A stretch of 55,818 nucleotides of DNA from contig JACREM010000047.1 in NCBI GenBank assembly GCA_016218215.1, forward strand, positions 1 to 55,818, written 5' to 3'. The position numbers and the translations under genes are program-made. The notes beneath the pieces are model-generated. The model searched no databases and was not told the DNA's origin. It was given only the letters and a program-made list of their open reading frames with translations. This DNA comes from Candidatus Gottesmanbacteria bacterium (GTDB taxonomy: Bacteria > Patescibacteriota > Microgenomatia > UBA10105 > UBA927). Below, piece after piece: positions 5,138-30,077 of the stretch. Each line of letters starts with the position of its first letter. Position 1 is the stretch's first letter.

Positions 5138-5229
5138 ATTCGGGTATTTATAGTATTTGCACTATTTTGATACCGTTGACAGCTCTCTTTGTCAGGTCTA
5201 GTATAGAGATATATTCGGGTTTATTTTGG
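5138..5229 (+). promoter_or_regulatory. Two TTCGGGT-core motifs upstream of the polymerase unit, candidate LexA operators
   Basis: ATTCGGGTATTTATAGTATTTGC (5138-5160) and TATTCGGGTTTATTTTGG (5212-5229), bracketing the TTGACA-N17-TAGTAT promoter. Confidence 0.45.
5176..5204 (+). promoter_or_regulatory. Sigma70-type promoter for the Y-family polymerase unit
   Basis: TTGACA (5176-5181), 17-nt spacer, TAGTAT (5199-5204). Confidence 0.55.
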
Positions 5230-5244
5230 TCATAGGAAATCTTC

Positions 5245-5472
5245 ATGGAACACATCGACGAATCAGTTTCGGTTACTTTGATTTCGGCAATTCCTTCTGT
5301 TTTAGAGTGGCGGGGGAGGCAGTACATTATAAAAACCATCGGACTTCATCATACATGGCGTGATGGTCGAATACTCTACCATGTATTTTCTGTCTCAGAC
5401 GAATCAATGTTTTTCAGATTGGAGTTTAATACCGAATCGCTTCTCTGGAGGCTCACTGATATAGCAGAGTAA
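5245..5472 (+). CDS. Small protein paired with the Y-family polymerase (DUF6504-like)
   Basis: VLEWRGRQYIIKTIGLHHTW...FFRLEFNTESLLWRL; 4 nt upstream of the polymerase gene. Confidence 0.5.
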   Translation: MEHIDESVSVTLISAIPSVLEWRGRQYIIKTIGLHHTWRDGRILYHVFSVSDESMFFRLEFNTESLLWRLTDIAE

Positions 5473-5476
5473 ACGT

Positions 5477-6739
5477 ATGAATGACATATTTTCTCCTCGT
5501 CCGTCAACCGTTCTTTACGTTGATATTAATTCCTGTTTCGCGACTATAGAGCAGCAGGCAAATCCGCTTATCCGTGGAAAGCCGGTGGTCGTGGCCGCGT
5601 ATGCCACAGGCAACGGATGCATCCTCGCCTCTTCTATAGAATCTAAACGCCTTGGGATAAAAACAGGAATGCATGTACGGGAGGCGCAGGTGATCTCTAG
5701 GGATCTCACTGTTCTGACTCCAGATCCGGAAAAATATCGTCATGTGAATGTTCTTTTAAAAAATATTCTGTCTGTCTACACAGATGTTGTAGAAGTGTAT
5801 TCTATAGATGAAATGTCTCTCGACGTTTCAAAAGATCCGTATTTTTTTCGTGTTTCAGAAGGGATACAGAGCGTTGATGCCTCCTTCGCGTATGCGAGAA
5901 AGATCAAGGAGCGTATCAGAAAAGAAATAGGCGAGTGGATACGGGTATCCATCGGAATTTCTACAAATGTGTACCTTGGAAAGGTCGCTTCAGATATACA
6001 AAAGCCGGACGGATGTACCGCAATCATCAAAGAGAACGTCGTAGAAACGCTAAAAAAATTATCAGTAGAGGATTTGTGCGGGATAAAAAAGGGATATGGG
6101 AATAGGCTTCGATCATCTGGAATGCAAACGGCATACGATATGTACAGATCTACACAGGATATTCTCATTCGTGCGTTTGGTTCAAAAATAGGTCGGGACT
6201 GGTGGCTTCGACTTCATGGATTTACCGAAGGAGACCGGGTATATAGGGAAGAACAAAAAACATATGGTCAGTCTCATGCGCTGTATATACCAAAGACTCC
6301 ATCTGATCCGGAGACCCTCTCTGTCTTGTCTCAACTTGTGTATAAAATGGCTCGTCGCCTTCGCGAGACGTACTCTGGAGCGTCTGGTGTTTCTTTGTCC
6401 TGTGTGTTTTCCGGGCATGAGTCCTGGCAGAAAAGTAGAACACTGTCGCACAGCATTTCTTCTTCGGATGATTTTTATAAAGCAGTTCTTCTCCTTTTAA
6501 ACCAAGCTCCATCTCTTCCGATCAGAATTCTTGCTGTTTCCTGTTTTGGCATGGTGTCAGGTAATAGTGTCCAGGAAGGATTGTTTGACACGAGAGAGCG
6601 AAAAGACAGTCTCACTCATGCACTTGACATAATCGGACGCAAATGGGGAGATGACGCGCTTATGTCTGCACGCGCTTTGACCGGGAGCTCTAAAGTTCTT
6701 GACCGCATTCCTTTTGGAAGAGCTGGGCTAAAAAATTAG
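5477..6739 (+). CDS. dinB: Y-family DNA polymerase (DinB/UmuC-like)
   Basis: VLYVDINSCFATIEQQANPLIRGKPVVVAA, EVYSIDEMSLDV, GISTNVYLGKVASDIQKPDG. Confidence 0.9.
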   Translation: MNDIFSPRPSTVLYVDINSCFATIEQQANPLIRGKPVVVAAYATGNGCILASSIESKRLGIKTGMHVREAQVISRDLTVLTPDPEKYRHVNVLLKNILSVYTDVVEVYSIDEMSLDVSKDPYFFRVSEGIQSVDASFAYARKIKERIRKEIGEWIRVSIGISTNVYLGKVASDIQKPDGCTAIIKENVVETLKKLSVEDLCGIKKGYGNRLRSSGMQTAYDMYRSTQDILIRAFGSKIGRDWWLRLHGFTEGDRVYREEQKTYGQSHALYIPKTPSDPETLSVLSQLVYKMARRLRETYSGASGVSLSCVFSGHESWQKSRTLSHSISSSDDFYKAVLLLLNQAPSLPIRILAVSCFGMVSGNSVQEGLFDTRERKDSLTHALDIIGRKWGDDALMSARALTGSSKVLDRIPFGRAGLKN

Positions 6740-6764: not shown

Positions 6765-7967
6765 ATGTCTATGGATACACGACCGCTTGCAGAACAGCTT
6801 CGCCCGCAGTCTTTTGACGATGTCATAGGTCAGGAGCATCTGGTGGGAAAAGATGGAGTCCTACGAAAGATGCTTGCCCAATCGTTTCTCCCTTCTCTGG
6901 TCTTCTGGGGCCCGCCCGGAGTAGGGAAAACGACACTTGCCAGATTGCTGGCAACGCTAACGAACAGTCACTTTGAGTCAAAATCTGCGGTGACGGCGAC
7001 GCTTGCAGACGTACGGCTTATCGTAAGCCAGGCGAGAACGCGAAAGACAGAAACCGGAGAACGGACGATTTTATTTTTGGATGAACTCCACAGATTTAAC
7101 AAAGCCCAACAGGATGCGCTTCTCCCCGTGGTAGAAGACGGGACGATCTGTTTTATCGGAGCTACAACAGAGAATCCGTCTTTTGAAGTCATTGCGCCGC
7201 TTCTTTCCCGGACGCGCGTCCTCGTATTAAAGCAATTGACGGACGATGAGCTTAAAAAATTACTGGGCAAAGCGTTGGAATTTGTTTCTACAACCATTGA
7301 TACTGATGCCCAAGGGTTTCTCATCGCATGTGCAAACGGGGACGGCAGATCTCTTCTTACCATATTTGAAATTGCGCATGAATTAAGCAATGGATCAGAA
7401 ATTACCCTGGAGCTTGTAGAAACAGCCGCGCAAAAAAAGATGCTTTCATACGATAAAACCGGAGATAATCATTACGACACGATCAGTGCGTTTATAAAAT
7501 CCATGAGAAGCAGTGATACAAGCGCAAGCATATACTATCTTGCCCGCATGACGATGTCAGGCGAGGATCCTCTTTTTATTGCCCGAAGAATGGTGATATT
7601 TGCAAGTGAAGACATAGGCATGGCGCAACCCACAGCCCTCGTCGTTGCCAATGCAGTGTTTGATGCGTGCCATAAAGTTGGGTATCCTGAGGCGCATATA
7701 GTTTTGGCTCATGGGGTCGTTTATCTGTCCCGCGCGAAGAAAAATAGAAGTGCGTATGATGCACTTCTTATGGCAGAAGTGGATGTAGAGAAATATGGAA
7801 ATCTTCCTATCCCATTGTCTGTCAGAAATGCTCCTACGAAACTTATGAAATCTCTGGGTTACTCAAAAGGGTATGAGATGTATACCAAAGATAGTCATCT
7901 GCCGGATAAAATAAAAGGCACAATATATTATAATGAAGAGTCGTCTACCGAGCATGGAAACACATAA
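6765..7967 (+). CDS. rarA: Replication-associated recombination protein A (MgsA/RarA AAA+ ATPase)
   Basis: AEQLRPQSFDDVIGQEHLVG, FWGPPGVGKTTLARLLA, LFLDELHRFNKAQQDALLPVVEDG. Confidence 0.93.
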   Translation: MSMDTRPLAEQLRPQSFDDVIGQEHLVGKDGVLRKMLAQSFLPSLVFWGPPGVGKTTLARLLATLTNSHFESKSAVTATLADVRLIVSQARTRKTETGERTILFLDELHRFNKAQQDALLPVVEDGTICFIGATTENPSFEVIAPLLSRTRVLVLKQLTDDELKKLLGKALEFVSTTIDTDAQGFLIACANGDGRSLLTIFEIAHELSNGSEITLELVETAAQKKMLSYDKTGDNHYDTISAFIKSMRSSDTSASIYYLARMTMSGEDPLFIARRMVIFASEDIGMAQPTALVVANAVFDACHKVGYPEAHIVLAHGVVYLSRAKKNRSAYDALLMAEVDVEKYGNLPIPLSVRNAPTKLMKSLGYSKGYEMYTKDSHLPDKIKGTIYYNEESSTEHGNT

Positions 7968-21142: not shown

Positions 21143-21769
21143 CTATGCCTGGTATTTACGGATAAGGCCGACAACTTTCCCCTGAATTTTTACATGTGTG
21201 GCAAAAATCGGAGACATCTGGGTATTTGCGGGCATGAGCTTGATCCTATCTTTTTCAAAATAAATCCGCTTAAGCGTTGCGAGCCCGTTTGGCAGAAGTG
21301 CAACCACGATGTCTCCATTTTTAGCATCCTGCTGGTGTTGTATAACAACAAAATCACCGTCAAAAATTCCGTCATCAATCATAGATGTGCCTTTGACCTG
21401 CAGTACATACCCCGGTTTATTGCTTGAGATCATGCCCGGGGCTACTGACATGTAAAAATTTGGATCTGTGTACGGCTCGAGAGGCGCGCCCGCAGCGATA
21501 TACCCAAGTACTGGTAGTTCTATGACAGTTTGACCAGTCAGAGCCGATTTTACACTGTCTGAAAGGTCCAATCCACGTGCCGTTCCATCGAGTTTTTTTA
21601 TAAAGCCCCTCTGCCTGAGTTTGTCTATATGTTCGTGTACTGTGGCGGGAGAAGCCATGCCAAGGGCCTCGCCTATTTCTTTCAGAGTTGGTGCATACCC
21701 ATATCTTTGAATAAATTGAGATATAAATTCTAAAATTTGACGTTCTCTCGAATAGACTGTTGCTGGCAT
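21143..21769 (-). CDS. lexA: LexA repressor
   Basis: YGYAPTLKEIGEALGMASPATVHEHIDKLRQRGFI; PVLGYIAAGAPLEP cleavage region; VKGTSMIDDGIFDGDFVVI. Confidence 0.95.
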   Translation of the reverse strand: MPATVYSRERQILEFISQFIQRYGYAPTLKEIGEALGMASPATVHEHIDKLRQRGFIKKLDGTARGLDLSDSVKSALTGQTVIELPVLGYIAAGAPLEPYTDPNFYMSVAPGMISSNKPGYVLQVKGTSMIDDGIFDGDFVVIQHQQDAKNGDIVVALLPNGLATLKRIYFEKDRIKLMPANTQMSPIFATHVKIQGKVVGLIRKYQA

Positions 21770-21835: not shown

Positions 21836-21905
21836 CCAAAATATACCCGAACGTCAAGAGGTCTATTGTGGATCAGAGCATATCAAGTATTGTATTTACC
21901 CGAAT
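21836..21905 (-). promoter_or_regulatory. Two TTCGGGT-core motifs in the lexA/uvrB intergenic region, candidate LexA operators
   Basis: Minus strand: ATTCGGGTAAATACAATACTTG (21905-21884), then CGTTCGGGTATATTTTGG (21853-21836); the same two motifs in the same order precede the polymerase unit. Confidence 0.45.
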
Positions 21906-23948
21906 ATGAATGAGTATTTACTTACATCCAAGTTTCAGCCAACGGGCGATCAGCCAGAGGCTATATTAGCTTTGCATAAGGCAATAGAAGCAGGAAATCG
22001 TGAACAGGTGCTCCTTGGTGTGACAGGGAGCGGAAAGACGTTTACCGTGGCACATCTTATAGCAAAACTAAACCGACCGACGCTTATCATCTCTCATAAT
22101 AAAACACTTGCGGCCCAGCTGTATCAGGAGTTTCGTGATTTTTTTCCTAAAAATGCTGTATCGTATTTTGTCTCCTATTACGATTACTATCAACCGGAAG
22201 CATATATTCCTCAGTCAGGTACATTTATAGAAAAAGAAACCGAGATCAACGATGAAATAGACAAACTGCGCCTTGCGGCTACCACCAATATTCTGACCAG
22301 AAAAGACACCATCGTTGTCGCGTCTGTTTCGTCTATCTATAACATAGGTTCGCCGCGCGAGTACGGACATTTTGTCCTGGAATTAAAACCCGGAATTGTT
22401 ATTTCAAGGGAATCCATTATGCTTCGCCTTATACAACTTCAGTACACGAGAGAGTCAGGAAGTTTTACGCGTGGGACATTTCGTGTCCGCGGAGATGTGA
22501 TAGATATATTTCCGGCGTACGAAGACACCGCTATCCGTTTGTCACTGTCACTCACGTCTGTGCTCTCAATCACACGTATAGATCCGATTGACATAGAGAC
22601 AATAGATACACTGCAATCGATTGTCATATTTCCAGCAAAACATTACATGACTAATCCAGAAAATCATAAAGAGGTGTTTAAAAAAATTGACAAAGACCTG
22701 GAGATAGAAGTGAAGGCACTGCAGAATAAAGGAAAAATTGTAGAAGCCCAAAGACTTCGGCAACGAGTCGAGTATGACATCGAAATGATAGGAGAGATGG
22801 GATATGTAAACGGCATCGAAAATTATTCCCGATATTTTGATGGAAGAAGCCCCGGTGATCCACCGTTTTCACTGTTAGACTATTTTAAGGAGGCAGGCGA
22901 ACAGCGGAAGAGCGATTGGCTTCTCATCGTCGACGAATCACATATTACTATTCCACAGATACGCGGCATGTATAACGGGGACAGAAGCAGAAAACAAACC
23001 CTGGTAGATTTTGGCTTTAGGCTCAGAGCATGCCTTGACAATAGGCCGCTTAACTTTGGGGAATTTTTATATAGAATTCCAGATACGGTATATGTTTCAG
23101 CAACTCCGGATGAATGGGAGCTTTCCCGAGCAAAGGATGCGTCCACTGGCGGCAATGGTGTGGTAGAGCAACTTGTCAGGCCAACGGGACTGGTCGATCC
23201 GCTGGTGAGCATCCATCCGACAGAGGGGCAAATACCGTCCTTACTTCTTGAGATAGAAAAACGTGTGCAGAAAAAAGAGAGAGCCATCATTACTACCCTG
23301 ACAAAACGGATGGCTGAAGAACTATCTGAATATATACAAAACAAAGGAATAAAAGTGAATTATCTTCATAGCGACATAGAAACACTTGACAGAAATGAAA
23401 TATTAAGAGATTTTCGCCTCGGGTTGTATGACGTAATTATCGGTATAAATCTTTTGAGAGAAGGTCTGGATCTTCCGGAGGTATCGCTTATTGCCATCCT
23501 CGATGCTGATAAGGAGGGATTTTTACGAAGTAAAACAAGTCTCATACAGATCATGGGAAGAGCCGCGCGGCACGTGCATGGATCGGTTATTTTGTATGCA
23601 GATGGTGTCACTCAGTCTATGAAAGGGGCCATGGATGAAGTAAACAGACGGCGAAAGATTCAGGAGACATATAATACCGTTCACAATATTCAACCTAGAA
23701 GCATCATAAAACCAATTCGTGACCAACTCATCGATCGTAAAGATACGTCACGCGAGACAAATGCGCTGACAATACTTGAAAATATGCGACCTCACGACAT
23801 GGATGCAATGACGCCGGATGACAAAAAAAAGTTTATATCAAAGCTTGCTCGTGAAATGAAAAGTGCCAGCAAATTGCTTCTCTTTGAGCGTGCCATGGCC
23901 ATACGGGACGCAATAACTGCAATAGAAAAGGGAGAATGGAAAAATTAG
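21906..23948 (+). CDS. uvrB: Excinuclease ABC subunit B
   Basis: GVTGSGKTFTVAHLIAKLNRPTLIISHNKTLAAQLYQEF, YYDYYQPEAYIPQSGTFIEKE, IMGRAARHVHGSVILYAD. Confidence 0.97.
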   Translation: MNEYLLTSKFQPTGDQPEAILALHKAIEAGNREQVLLGVTGSGKTFTVAHLIAKLNRPTLIISHNKTLAAQLYQEFRDFFPKNAVSYFVSYYDYYQPEAYIPQSGTFIEKETEINDEIDKLRLAATTNILTRKDTIVVASVSSIYNIGSPREYGHFVLELKPGIVISRESIMLRLIQLQYTRESGSFTRGTFRVRGDVIDIFPAYEDTAIRLSLSLTSVLSITRIDPIDIETIDTLQSIVIFPAKHYMTNPENHKEVFKKIDKDLEIEVKALQNKGKIVEAQRLRQRVEYDIEMIGEMGYVNGIENYSRYFDGRSPGDPPFSLLDYFKEAGEQRKSDWLLIVDESHITIPQIRGMYNGDRSRKQTLVDFGFRLRACLDNRPLNFGEFLYRIPDTVYVSATPDEWELSRAKDASTGGNGVVEQLVRPTGLVDPLVSIHPTEGQIPSLLLEIEKRVQKKERAIITTLTKRMAEELSEYIQNKGIKVNYLHSDIETLDRNEILRDFRLGLYDVIIGINLLREGLDLPEVSLIAILDADKEGFLRSKTSLIQIMGRAARHVHGSVILYADGVTQSMKGAMDEVNRRRKIQETYNTVHNIQPRSIIKPIRDQLIDRKDTSRETNALTILENMRPHDMDAMTPDDKKKFISKLAREMKSASKLLLFERAMAIRDAITAIEKGEWKN

Positions 23949-23949
23949 T

Positions 23950-26934
23950 ATGTACGACAGTATAAAAATAATTGGAGCAAAGCAGCATAATCTAAAGAAT
24001 GTTAATCTCACTCTGCCAAAGGGCAAACTTATTGTGTTTTCAGGTCTTTCGGGTTCCGGAAAGTCATCTCTTGCATTTGATACGATCTATGCTGAAGGAC
24101 AAAGACGGTACGTCGAGTCGCTCTCATCATACGCTCGTCAATTTTTGGGTGTGCTCGACAAGCCAGATGTAGATAGCATAGAAGGGTTGTCTCCTTCAAT
24201 CTCTATTGACCAAAAAACGACCTCTCATAATCCGCGGTCTACTGTTGGTACAGTGACGGAAATGTATGATTATCTTCGCCTCTTATTTGCGCGCATAGGG
24301 CATCCGCATTGCTCTCTTTGCGGACGCGAGATAGAGAGACAGACGAACCAACAGATTGTTTCACTGTGTATAGACCGCATGCTTGAACGATCCCACGAAT
24401 CTCCCATTGTTCGTATGCTTATTTTGTCTCCCGTTGTAAGGGATAGAAAAGGGGAATTTAGTGGGCTGTTTGCAAATGCAAAAGCGAAAGGGTATTCAGA
24501 CCTTCGTGTCGACGGCGTCATCATCGGACTTGACGAAGATATCGGGCTTATTAAAACAAACAAACACAGTATAGATATTGTCATTGATCGTATAATTGTG
24601 GATCGAGCGCTTGCACGCTCAATGAAACGCGGAAAGGATGAACGTGCGTCAGACAACGATAAAATGCTCTATAAAACATTTCGTAGCCGCGTAGCAGACT
24701 CCATAGAGCAGGCACTCAAGCTTTCAGATGGCCTTGTGACCGTGGCAGATGTCCAAGAATCAGGGTTTACGTTTCCCCAAAAACCCAAAGAAATGATTGA
24801 TTTGCTTTACTCAGAGCGTTTTGCCTGTCCGACGTGCGGCATTTCGCTTCCTGAGATTGAACCCAGGTCTTTTTCTTTTAACTCCCCGCACGGTGCGTGT
24901 GGGGACTGCACCGGCCTTGGAAAAATTCTCACCGTTGATCCTGATTCCGTTATGAATCCAATACTAACTCTTAGCGAGGGCGGCATCCTGCCTTTTGCGA
25001 GGACTTTTGAAAATGACACCTGGTACTCGCGCCTTGTTCGGACTGTCTGTGAAGAACACTCCATATCTATGAAGCAGGCCATAGGAACCCTCACACAAAA
25101 ACAGCGCGATATTCTTCTTCTTGGTACGGGAGAACGCATCTACAGCGTTTCCGGCACAAACAGGTTTGGCGAAAAAACAAGAATTGAAGAACAGTTTAAG
25201 GGGTTTATTTCAGAGTTAAAAGCCAGGCATGTATCCTCGGATTCTGAATGGGTAAAAAGTGAAATTGAAAAGTATATGCGGGAAGAAGTTTGCCCAACGT
25301 GCCATGGGGATAGGCTGAAAAGAGATGCGCTGACTGTAACGGTAGACGGTAAGAATATTGCGTTTGTCTCTAGCCTTTCCATCGGCGCTCTCCATGCATG
25401 GGTGAGTACTATAGGAACGATCATAAAAAATGATCAGGAAAAAATTATTGCTACATCGATCATAAAGGAGTTGAAGCTTCGGTCTAAATTTTTAGATGAA
25501 GTAGGGCTTGAGTATCTGAGCCTCTCGCGTGCAGCCATGACTCTTTCCGGTGGAGAAGCTCAGCGAATTCGCCTTGCTTCTCAGATTGGATCAGGACTGT
25601 CCGGAGTATTGTATGTCCTGGATGAACCGTCTATTGGTCTTCACCCACGGGATAACGCAAAACTTATTTCAACACTCAAAACTTTAAGAGATTTAGGAAA
25701 TACCGTCATAGTTGTCGAGCATGACCGCGAAATGATTATGGAAGCGGATTATCTTGTAGATTTCGGACCCGGAGCAGGAGAACACGGCGGAGCTATCATA
25801 GCAGAGGGAACTGTTGATGAAGTGATCAAAAATAAATACTCAATTACCGGAGCGTATCTTTCGGGTAAACGTAATCTCGACAGATTTTACAAACATCAAA
25901 AATTGCTTACGGATGAGACGAAATACCTCAAAATTTATGGCGCGAGTGAAAACAATTTAAAAAATCTGAACGTATCATTCCCCCTCGGACACTTTGTTAC
26001 AATCACTGGAGTATCCGGAAGCGGAAAATCAACGCTTATTGTAGAAACACTCTACAAAGCGCTTCAAAAAGAAAGAGGTATTCTATCCCGCGAAGCAGGG
26101 GCAGTGTACAAAAAACTAGAGGGAATTGAATTTTTAGATAAGGTCGTTCTTATCGATCAGTCTCCGATTGGAAGAACCCCGCGAAGCAACCCTGCCACGT
26201 ACACAGGTCTTTTTACACTTATACGCGATGTCTATTCCGAGATTCCGGAAGCAAAATTACGCGGATATAAGCCGGGAAGATTTTCATTTAATGTTTCCTC
26301 CAGAGGAGGAAAAGGCGGAAGATGTGAAGCGTGTGAAGGCGAAGGACAGCGAAAAATCGAGATGCAGTTTCTTTCGGATGTCTATGTAACATGTGAAGTC
26401 TGTCATGGACAGCGGTATAACATCGAGACTCTCGAAGTGCTCTATCGTGGCAAATCCATAGCTGGCGTTTTGGATATGACCATTGAAGATGCGTGTGATT
26501 TTTTTAGGCATCATCCTCTCATGAGAGAAAAATTAGAAACACTCGCATGTGTAGGGTTAGGGTATATGCATCTTGGTCAGAGCGCGACCACTCTTTCTGG
26601 AGGAGAGGCACAGAGAGTCAAGCTTGCCACGGAGCTCTCGCGTAGATCTACTGGGAAAACCATGTATATCCTCGACGAGCCTACAACCGGCCTTCATTTT
26701 GGAGATTTAGAAAAGCTTCTCGAAGTACTTTTTGCCCTGCGAGACAAGGGAAATAGTCTTATCGTGATTGAACACAATCTGGATGTTATTAAAAATAGCG
26801 ATTGGCTTATTGATCTCGGACCTGAGGGCGGGGACAATGGAGGTACTCTCGTCGCGGTTGGTACGCCAGATGACATAAAAAAGAACAAAAATTCCTACAC
26901 AGGCCAGTGTCTTAGTGAGAGTACAGAGATATGA
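23950..26934 (+). CDS. uvrA: Excinuclease ABC subunit A
   Basis: GAKQHNLKNVNLTLPKGKLIVFSGLSGSGKSSLAFDTIYAEGQRRYVESLSSYARQFL; two ABC signature regions; CEACEGEGQRKIEMQFLSDVYVTCEVCHG. Confidence 0.98.
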   Translation: MYDSIKIIGAKQHNLKNVNLTLPKGKLIVFSGLSGSGKSSLAFDTIYAEGQRRYVESLSSYARQFLGVLDKPDVDSIEGLSPSISIDQKTTSHNPRSTVGTVTEMYDYLRLLFARIGHPHCSLCGREIERQTNQQIVSLCIDRMLERSHESPIVRMLILSPVVRDRKGEFSGLFANAKAKGYSDLRVDGVIIGLDEDIGLIKTNKHSIDIVIDRIIVDRALARSMKRGKDERASDNDKMLYKTFRSRVADSIEQALKLSDGLVTVADVQESGFTFPQKPKEMIDLLYSERFACPTCGISLPEIEPRSFSFNSPHGACGDCTGLGKILTVDPDSVMNPILTLSEGGILPFARTFENDTWYSRLVRTVCEEHSISMKQAIGTLTQKQRDILLLGTGERIYSVSGTNRFGEKTRIEEQFKGFISELKARHVSSDSEWVKSEIEKYMREEVCPTCHGDRLKRDALTVTVDGKNIAFVSSLSIGALHAWVSTIGTIIKNDQEKIIATSIIKELKLRSKFLDEVGLEYLSLSRAAMTLSGGEAQRIRLASQIGSGLSGVLYVLDEPSIGLHPRDNAKLISTLKTLRDLGNTVIVVEHDREMIMEADYLVDFGPGAGEHGGAIIAEGTVDEVIKNKYSITGAYLSGKRNLDRFYKHQKLLTDETKYLKIYGASENNLKNLNVSFPLGHFVTITGVSGSGKSTLIVETLYKALQKERGILSREAGAVYKKLEGIEFLDKVVLIDQSPIGRTPRSNPATYTGLFTLIRDVYSEIPEAKLRGYKPGRFSFNVSSRGGKGGRCEACEGEGQRKIEMQFLSDVYVTCEVCHGQRYNIETLEVLYRGKSIAGVLDMTIEDACDFFRHHPLMREKLETLACVGLGYMHLGQSATTLSGGEAQRVKLATELSRRSTGKTMYILDEPTTGLHFGDLEKLLEVLFALRDKGNSLIVIEHNLDVIKNSDWLIDLGPEGGDNGGTLVAVGTPDDIKKNKNSYTGQCLSESTEI

Positions 26935-28727
26935 AATTTATTGAACGGGTGTTTACGTTTTTCATTCTTATATTTATTCCCCTTGGACACGTTTTCGCGG
27001 CTTCTGATTTTCTTGCAAATTATGATATTTCATACGCAGTTTCACCAAGCGGTAAAACCATCGTTACAGAAAATATTACCCTCATAAACAAAACATCCGG
27101 AACGTACCCAAAACAATATGCTATTACTCTTGATTCAACAGATATAAAAAATACTATCGCATACGATCCAAAAGGTATTGTTCCGATAGAAGCAAGAAGT
27201 TTAGAGGGAAAAACGATGCTTCTCCTAACTTTTAATACAAAAGTTGTCGGGATAGATAAGGCTTTGCCGTTCTCTCTTCGATTTGAAACAGATTCTGTAG
27301 CCCGAAAATTTGGGTCAATCTGGGAGATTTCAATTCCGGGCGTACCAAAAGATGAATCTATTGGCACCTATGATGTGAGGCTATCTGTGCCTGATAATTT
27401 CGGTGAAAATTCCTATGTATCGCCATCTCCTGTAGATGGAATGCACTGGACGAAAGCTACGCTTTCATATGGTGGTGTAAATGCGTCCTACGGAAAAAAA
27501 CAATCGTACAGCCTTTCGCTTTTATACCACCTAGTAAATTCTTCGACAAGAGAAAAAAACATGAGCATCACGCTTCCTCCAGACACCGCCTATCAACAAA
27601 TGCTTATTTCTTCTCTTGATCCGGAGGCCGCGAAGGTAGAGCGAGATCGTGATGGGAACTGGCTTGCACAATACACTGTGAAAGCAAACGAGAAGCTTGA
27701 TATATCAGCACAAATCTTAGCAACGGTGTATCCTTTTCCAAGAGAAAGTTACGGCAAAGATACTATAGTTTCACGGGACTATCTGGCTGAACGGCCGTTT
27801 TGGGAGGTGTCTGACCCGTCTATCGTTTCTCTGGGCGGAACATATAAAACACCCGAGCAAATATATACATACGTATCTACATTTCTTTCCTATGATTATA
27901 CAAGGGTATCTCTTGGTATTGACAGGCTTGGGGCCGTAGGAGCTTTACGTTCAAACGCTCAAGCGCTTTGCAATGAATTCACTGATCTTTTTATCGCAAT
28001 CGCAAGAGCATCGGGCATACCCGCGCGAAGAGTAGTAGGATATGGATACACGACAAATCCAAAAATTAAGCCCTTGTCACTTATCGTAGATGTTCTTCAT
28101 ACCTGGCCTGAGTACTTTGATGAAAAGCGAAGCGTTTGGATATCCGTAGACCCAACATGGGCAAATACCACTGGAGGCATAGATTATTTCAGGAAACTTG
28201 ATTTTTCACATATAGCATTTGCAATAAATGGGCTATCAAGCTCAGAACCAAAGGCTGCCGGGATGTATAAAAACGAAAAAATCCAATCAAAAGATGTTCT
28301 AGTGACACTGTCATCTGAAAAAATTGAAAGCAGTGAGTCACCATCCCTTGTTCTTTCGTTTCATCTTCCTCGTCAGGTGATAAGCGGCACATATGCCCGA
28401 GGGACTCTCGAACTTAAAAACACATCGGGTGTTGCGGTGCAGATAGAGGGTGTAAAAGTTGAATCTTTATCGCATCTTGTGAGTCTATCAAATTCAACGA
28501 CAGAAATCCCACCATTTGGGAATATTGTTCTCCCGATAACATATCCTCTCCCGTTCTTTCCGACAGTCACCCGCGACATATTTACAGCGAAAGCGGGAAG
28601 TAGTATGGCACGGGCAGAAGTGCTTTATATATCTGCCACGCTCGTTTTTACTGTGCTTCTTTCTCTTTTATCTATCGGCGGAATTATCTACATTATTTTT
28701 TTAATGCTGAGAAGAAAGCATGTGTAG
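26931..28727 (+). CDS. Transglutaminase-like domain protein with signal peptide and C-terminal TM
   Basis: NAQALCNEFTDLFIAIARASGIPARRVVGYGYT...HTWPEYFDEKRSVWISVDPTW (Cys-His-Asp pattern); 4-bp overlap with uvrA. Confidence 0.88.
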   Translation: MKFIERVFTFFILIFIPLGHVFAASDFLANYDISYAVSPSGKTIVTENITLINKTSGTYPKQYAITLDSTDIKNTIAYDPKGIVPIEARSLEGKTMLLLTFNTKVVGIDKALPFSLRFETDSVARKFGSIWEISIPGVPKDESIGTYDVRLSVPDNFGENSYVSPSPVDGMHWTKATLSYGGVNASYGKKQSYSLSLLYHLVNSSTREKNMSITLPPDTAYQQMLISSLDPEAAKVERDRDGNWLAQYTVKANEKLDISAQILATVYPFPRESYGKDTIVSRDYLAERPFWEVSDPSIVSLGGTYKTPEQIYTYVSTFLSYDYTRVSLGIDRLGAVGALRSNAQALCNEFTDLFIAIARASGIPARRVVGYGYTTNPKIKPLSLIVDVLHTWPEYFDEKRSVWISVDPTWANTTGGIDYFRKLDFSHIAFAINGLSSSEPKAAGMYKNEKIQSKDVLVTLSSEKIESSESPSLVLSFHLPRQVISGTYARGTLELKNTSGVAVQIEGVKVESLSHLVSLSNSTTEIPPFGNIVLPITYPLPFFPTVTRDIFTAKAGSSMARAEVLYISATLVFTVLLSLLSIGGIIYIIFLMLRRKHV

Positions 28728-28733
28728 ATACGT

Positions 28734-30077
28734 ATGCGATATACAAAAAATCAGCGGAAATTACTGCCAACTACCCCCGGAATTTATCAGTATTTTGACG
28801 CATCAGATAGTCTTTTATATATAGGAAAAGCCAAAAATCTTCGAAAAAGAGTAAGTCAATACTTTCTCGATACGAAGCACCTTGGAGAAAAAACTCACAT
28901 ACTCGTTTCTCAGATAGACTCAATTTCGATCATAGAGACTGAAAGCGAATTTGACGCTATACTGTTTGAATCTGAACTTATTCGTACACTTCAGCCAAAA
29001 TATAATATTCTCGCCAAGGACGATAAGAGTCCGCTGTATGTCCTTCTGACACTCCACGAAGAATTGCCGCACATTCTGTATATCCGTAAACACGATATTC
29101 AGCGTTTGTACATACGAAAAAAAGATGCGTTGTTCGGCCCATATCAATCAGCGCATATGATTCGGTCGCTCATGAGAACACTGCGGCATATTGTTCCGTT
29201 TTGTCTTCAAAAAAGACGGAACGGTAAACCGTGTTTTTCGTCTCACATTGGACTCTGCAGCCCATGCGCGTCAGAAATACAGGGTATGCCGGGGGGCAAA
29301 TTAAAACAGGAAAGCGTACGAGTATATAGATCCCATGTGATTACGTTAAAACATATTTTGTCGGGAAAATCAGACGTTGTCAGGCGATCATACGCAAGAG
29401 AGATGAACGCTCTTTCAAAACACTTGCACTACGAAGAGGCGCTCGTTATACGAAAACACATTGAATCCCTTGATGTACTTAAGCGAAGAAGATTTGATCC
29501 ATCTGTCTATACTCAAAGTGAACAAAAAATTGATGATATTTACCAGATGGAGCTCTCTGACACTCTGGAAGTACTACATAGATTTGGCATAACAATACAC
29601 TCACTAGAACGTATAGAATGCATAGACATTTCAAACACGCAAGGGACGCATGCGACAGGAGCATTGACAGTATCAATCGATGGTCGCATGACAGTGAGCG
29701 AATATCGAAAATTCCGTATCAGGACTGTACAGTCTCCAAATGATGTTCTTATGGTTTCTGAAGTTATGCGACGAAGGTTGTCTCATACCGAATGGCGGTT
29801 TCCCGAGCTTTTTGTGATAGACGGAGGGAAGGGACAGATCCAGGCTGCGTGTAGCGTACTTGATGAATACAGCTGCACTATTCCAATTATTGGTCTTGCC
29901 AAACGCTTTGAAACGATTCTTTACTACCACAGAAGAACTCAATCATTTCAAAGCATCAATCTTTCTTTCGATCGACCGGCTCTCCATCTTTTTCAGCGGA
30001 TACGCGATGAAGCTCACAGGTTTTCAAAATCATATCATTCCTTATTGCGTTCAAAAAGTATGACGCGGGAGTCTTGA
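28734..30077 (+). CDS. uvrC: Excinuclease ABC subunit C, short form
   Basis: LPTTPGIYQYFDASDSLLYIGKAKNLRKRVSQYF (GIY-YIG), UVR-like helix pair, CIDISNTQGTHATGALTV, FVIDGGKGQ, RIRDEAHRF; ends shortly after. Confidence 0.93.
   Translation: MRYTKNQRKLLPTTPGIYQYFDASDSLLYIGKAKNLRKRVSQYFLDTKHLGEKTHILVSQIDSISIIETESEFDAILFESELIRTLQPKYNILAKDDKSPLYVLLTLHEELPHILYIRKHDIQRLYIRKKDALFGPYQSAHMIRSLMRTLRHIVPFCLQKRRNGKPCFSSHIGLCSPCASEIQGMPGGKLKQESVRVYRSHVITLKHILSGKSDVVRRSYAREMNALSKHLHYEEALVIRKHIESLDVLKRRRFDPSVYTQSEQKIDDIYQMELSDTLEVLHRFGITIHSLERIECIDISNTQGTHATGALTVSIDGRMTVSEYRKFRIRTVQSPNDVLMVSEVMRRRLSHTEWRFPELFVIDGGKGQIQAACSVLDEYSCTIPIIGLAKRFETILYYHRRTQSFQSINLSFDRPALHLFQRIRDEAHRFSKSYHSLLRSKSMTRES

Follow-up and report, generated by a model that had tools for sequence, protein, structure and literature searches.

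The LexA boxes of E. coli (CTGT-N8-ACAG) and of Gram-positive bacteria (GAAC-N4-GTTC) are inverted repeats. LexA operators built as direct repeats are also known. The Alphaproteobacterial LexA box, GTTC-N7-GTTC, is a direct repeat (PMC8565304), as is the Balneolaeota box, TTACACATATTTTWTACATA, which is found at lexA and at polymerase genes (PMC7739468). The Balneolaeota paper also cites work by Sanchez-Osuna, Barbe and Erill from 2017 (PMID 28618189) on Patescibacteria LexA as an instance of direct-repeat recognition.

Here we describe a candidate SOS box of the form TTCGG-N6-TTYGG in a 55,818-nucleotide stretch of DNA (the window), which is contig 15 of a 1.27-Mb draft genome of a Candidatus Gottesmanbacteria bacterium. 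With the Alphaproteobacterial box it shares the 11-bp period, half-sites in the same direction and the letters TTC, but the half-site here is TTCGG rather than GTTC, and the base before TTC is variable (12 A, 8 G, 6 T, and 4 C in 30 boxes). The Balneolaeota operator is likewise a direct repeat, but its half-site differs and its regulon includes recA, unlike the regulon predicted here. The Patescibacteria LexA operator comes from the same superphylum and is also a direct repeat, a likeness that follows the description in the citing paper rather than a consensus. Because direct-repeat LexA operators are already known, TTCGG-N6-TTYGG adds a member to a known kind, and this box has quite possibly been described before.

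A preliminary description of this DNA had held that the motif matches neither of the inverted-repeat boxes. For E. coli we reached the same conclusion, as the conserved box does not contain CTGT-N8-ACAG. For the Gram-positive box the statement holds in part: the GAAC-N4-GTTC palindrome is absent at both sites in the window, but its half-site, GTTC, shares TTC(G) with the direct repeat found here. The recognition helix of B. subtilis LexA is very similar to that of the LexA encoded in the window.

The candidate box at the dinB and lexA promoters

One of the two sites lies upstream of a plus-strand unit whose first gene is a 75-aa ORF (5245..5472), assigned to a conserved family by translation and alignment. 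This ORF is followed by a gene for a Y-family DNA polymerase (dinB-like, 5477..6739; Pfam IMS and IMS_C and DNA polymerase IV models) and by one for a RarA/MgsA AAA+ ATPase (6765..7967; Pfam MgsA_C and AAA), which probably belongs to the same unit. No Pfam model matched the 75-aa protein above the cut-off, and DUF6504 gave a sub-threshold match in 8 of 21 family members (best E of 0.0035). Homologues of the protein (including L245-L274) were found in 136 of the 286 genomes of the class, and in some f24 genomes a homologue is encoded directly downstream of lexA. The promoter of the unit (5176..5204, plus strand), TTGACA (5176-5181)-N17-TAGTAT (5199-5204), is present as the preliminary description had proposed, and TTGAC occurs at a related position in the dinB-unit promoters of relatives.

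Upstream of the -35 element of this promoter we also observed a TTTGAT element (5166..5171, plus strand), which lexA and dinB promoters carry ahead of their -35 element (5166-5181 in the window; L121, L122, L155, and other lexA loci). TGAT begins 8, 18, or 28 bp before TTGAC, and thus in 10-bp steps, and TTTGAT is repeated 10 bp apart in genome G006. It also occurs at other promoters, with 262 matches over 24 genomes versus 59 in the reversed control. We dropped the element as a part of SOS control because it is present at other promoters, including those of G006, where lexA was not found. It is a general promoter feature of the family and, given its presence at other promoters, may serve widely as an upstream promoter element with which the alpha subunit of RNA polymerase makes contact.

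The other site lies between lexA (21143..21769, minus strand; TIGR00498, E of 9e-53, with LexA_DNA_bind and Peptidase_S24 domains) and the divergent uvrB (21906..23948, plus strand; TIGR00631). LexA (208 aa) is intact by sequence, with the conserved Ala93-Gly94 cleavage site and the catalytic residues Ser129 and Lys167. It matches 16 distinct solved LexA sequences, and its closest relatives, at 81% identity and below, are mostly from Candidatus Gottesmanbacteria (Microgenomates, Patescibacteria). The genes for uvrB, uvrA, and a UvrC-like protein are close together on one strand (21906-30077), with uvrA and uvrC named by eye and one other frame (26931-28727) between them. Some genomes, that of the window (G000) included, encode additional LexA-like S24 proteins that are 30-42% identical to LexA and have different recognition helices (G000:C61:1900-2469, which is L055, and G000:C81:12974-13564; L052-L054, L056, and L057).

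At each site the preliminary description had reported two motif copies, A and B, in that order and spaced by 75 nt at dinB and 53 nt at lexA, and we found their sequences, coordinates, strands, order, and spacings to be as claimed. Copy B, the main candidate SOS box, reads TTCGG-GTTTAT-TTTGG at the small-ORF-dinB unit (5214..5229, plus strand), where this direct repeat of 11-bp period lies just 3' of the -10 element and close to the expected transcription start. At lexA, copy B reads TTCGG-GTATAT-TTTGG (21836..21851, minus strand) and lies directly 3' of the -35 element TTGACG, with a weak -10 element (ATTATT) beyond it. When the intergenic regions at the two sites (156 and 136 nt) were compared, 1 of 1000 dinucleotide shuffles equalled the 16-mer match of B and 15 of 1000 equalled the 22-mer match of A, a marginal result for A. 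Considering the window alone, the evidence is thus only suggestive for A, and B stands well above chance. Exact matches to the B pattern in the 1.27-Mb genome numbered two, the lexA and dinB sites only. When up to three mismatches were allowed, the 16-mer pattern yielded 53 matches versus 30 for the reversed control, too lax a search to be of use.

Conservation and specificity of the direct repeat

Whether orthologous lexA and dinB genes carry the motif upstream had been set beforehand as a test of it. In the lexA and dinB upstream regions of about 20 family genomes, copy B takes the form of the direct repeat TTCGG-N6-TTYGG, with a perfect TTCGG-N6-TTCGG in several; a dinB-like match or a box match was missing from some family genomes. 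Both in Candidatus Gottesmanbacteria and more widely in the Microgenomates class, lexA and the small-ORF-dinB operon are repeatedly preceded by the box. Under strict patterns, TYGG-N7-TYGG was present in 38 of 78 lexA upstream regions (shuffle mean, 1.15), and neither the neighbouring spacings nor the inverted arrangement (TYGG/CCRA) was enriched in these 78 regions. Similarly, TTCGG-N6-TTYGG was found in 39 of 89 promoters of the small-ORF-dinB unit, drawn from 21 families, versus 0-1 at the other spacings from 1 to 15. Copy B alone, as a direct repeat TTCGG-N6-TTYGG of 11-bp period, is supported as the putative operator unit.

In its typical form, TTGAC-TTCGGGTTTTATTCGG-TATAAT, the box fills the promoter spacer. 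Its T-rich composition and its frequent position between the -35 and -10 elements could suggest that the motif is a promoter or spacer feature of the lineage rather than an operator. We find this scarcely credible, however, as the motif is concentrated at SOS genes and not at promoters generally, lies downstream of the -10 element at dinB in the window's genome, and is missing from recA promoters. In two families of the Microgenomates class, f7 and f37, we observed a (G/A)AAC-N4-GTT(C/T) palindrome replacing the TTCGG direct repeat at the small-ORF promoter (L284, L297, L298, L301, L318, L320, L321, L322, and L325).

Nor is the motif randomly scattered, as the preliminary description had anticipated for a genuine operator. 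A sequence-only model was made from 30 lexA and dinB boxes and run against 27 genomes of the order. Its top four matches in the window's genome are at lexA/uvrB (the best, with an E of 9e-4), a Bro-N gene (on C71, 2e-3), the dinB operon (4e-3), and a rhuM-like gene (on C64, 7e-3). The C71 match lies just upstream of the Bro-N (DinD-like) gene (L003) and the C64 match just upstream of the RhuM-family gene (L086), and both are outside the training set. A box also precedes the rhuM-like gene of genome G010 (L102). The next match (C73:5318, E of 0.02) is inside a thymidine kinase frame; we rejected it as a target and took it as chance.

A blind scan of 382 phylum genomes with a promoter-plus-box pattern yielded 16 matches versus 1 in the reversed control. 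Twelve of these loci were read, and the downstream gene on the same strand encodes a LexA homologue in seven (the window's genome included), a Y-family polymerase in two, and RhuM in one. Ten of the 13 genomes with matches are outside the class. The association of rhuM with the box recurs outside the class at L373 (G286). Conservation, genome-wide specificity, and blind recovery at lexA, dinB, and rhuM in the phylum argue at the sequence level for the original proposal of a candidate SOS operator common to lexA/uvrB and the dinB unit.

All 27 genomes of the order encode recA. We did not detect a box in 25 recA upstream regions, in which the best score was 7.3 versus a minimum of 15.9 for the training boxes, and recA was rejected as a target on these grounds. 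The LexA regulon of the order thus appears to be small and to exclude recA. Control of recA by LexA is common but does not define an SOS operator.

We consider it very probable that TTCGG-N6-TTYGG is the operator of the LexA of this lineage, acting through the mechanism proposed below. Counting against this reading are recA without a box, the family genomes without a dinB-like match or a box match, and the weak lexA -10 element. The recognition region of LexA, S-x-A/S-T-V/I-HEH, hardly varies among 78 LexAs, which agrees with a shared operator. Since the window's genome encodes two additional LexA-like proteins, at 42% and 38% identity, the box might instead belong to another repressor, such as an S24 paralogue, that happens to control lexA and dinB. 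This is highly unlikely: the paralogues are found in only a minority of family genomes, whereas lexA and the box are common throughout the class and turn up again in the wider phylum, and the recognition helix differs in one paralogue group that was aligned.

Copy A and possible auxiliary TTCGG sites

Copy A at dinB (5138..5159, plus strand), a candidate auxiliary site, contains TTCGG with a decayed second half and precedes the main box by 75 bp (7.1 turns). In the lexA/uvrB gap, copy A (21884..21905, minus strand) contains TTCGG with no recognisable second half, abuts the uvrB start codon, and is 53 bp from the main box. With a matrix made from 30 family boxes, both window B copies among them, the A copies scored 13.7 (dinB) and 2.9 (lexA/uvrB) versus 26.1 and 28.6 for the respective B copies. 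In G015, G019, G020, G009, and G013, a full box occupies the place that copy A has in the lexA/uvrB gap. As for copy A at dinB, in relatives TTCGG-N6-TTCGT or TTCGG-N6-TTCAT precedes the main box by 53-55 bp. Judged by its letters, A is the B repeat in a degenerate form or reduced to a half-site.

The preliminary description had viewed A and B as a two-part motif, which we revise, as A is a weaker copy of the B repeat. If A and B were distinct and both needed, they would form a bipartite operator around the promoter, and many lexA and dinB promoters within the order do have a second TTCGG at a whole-turn spacing. We nonetheless regard a bipartite operator as improbable, because A is not a different element from B and because most promoters outside the order have a single box.

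A further TTCGG inside the small ORF (5268..5272, plus strand) follows the main box at 54 bp (5.1 turns) and is a possible auxiliary half-site, although it may simply reflect Val-Ser-Val codons. Spacings of 54 or 64-66 were also found in G002, G009, G011, G012, G022, G024, and G025, and genomes with a site inside the small ORF are mostly without an upstream copy. Within the order, extra TTCGG sites occur 21, 42, 53-56, 64-66, 75-76, and 95-96 bp from the main box on either side. After equal spacings were collapsed per promoter type, 15 spacing classes showed helical phasing with an R of 0.76 at a period of 10.5 (Rayleigh p ~2e-4), though the classes are partly dependent, as 95 equals 53 plus 42 and some pairs were counted from both sides. 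The window's own TTCGG spacings of 53, 75, and 54 fit this phasing. Outside the order, phasing had no support (Rayleigh p ~0.30). Because the classes are not fully independent and shared ancestry was only partly removed, we treat phasing as a lead and not as a result. Tentatively, LexA repression in Gottesmanbacteria and their kin might involve the main direct-repeat box together with auxiliary TTCGG sites farther away, lying upstream, in the leader, or within the first gene and held in helical phase with it at about 4, 5, 6, or 7 turns, a possibility in which our confidence is low. If true, phased auxiliary sites would imply cooperative LexA binding, possibly with looping or wrapping, a mode for which we know of no description for LexA.

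Proposed repression and the predicted regulon

We infer LexA binding, repression, and induction at these promoters from knowledge of the LexA family. A LexA dimer would bind the pair of co-oriented half-sites, which are one turn of the helix apart, and its two DNA-binding domains would then sit on the same side of the DNA. As the box overlaps the promoter, bound LexA is proposed to exclude RNA polymerase: at lexA the box occupies the stretch after the -35 element up to the -10 element, and at dinB in the window's genome it would cover the transcription start. Following DNA damage, RecA would trigger LexA self-cleavage at Ala93-Gly94, which would release lexA, the small-ORF-dinB-rarA unit, the Bro-N (DinD-like) gene, and the rhuM-like gene. 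Release would probably extend to uvrB on the other strand, which probably shares the lexA operator region.

The presence of a GAAC-N4-GTTC-like palindrome versus a direct repeat at the same promoter position across Microgenomates families provides an example of operator switching. Our analysis yields a concrete candidate SOS box for a large group of uncultured bacteria, along with a small predicted regulon, one without recA and with a conserved, unnamed small protein encoded ahead of dinB.
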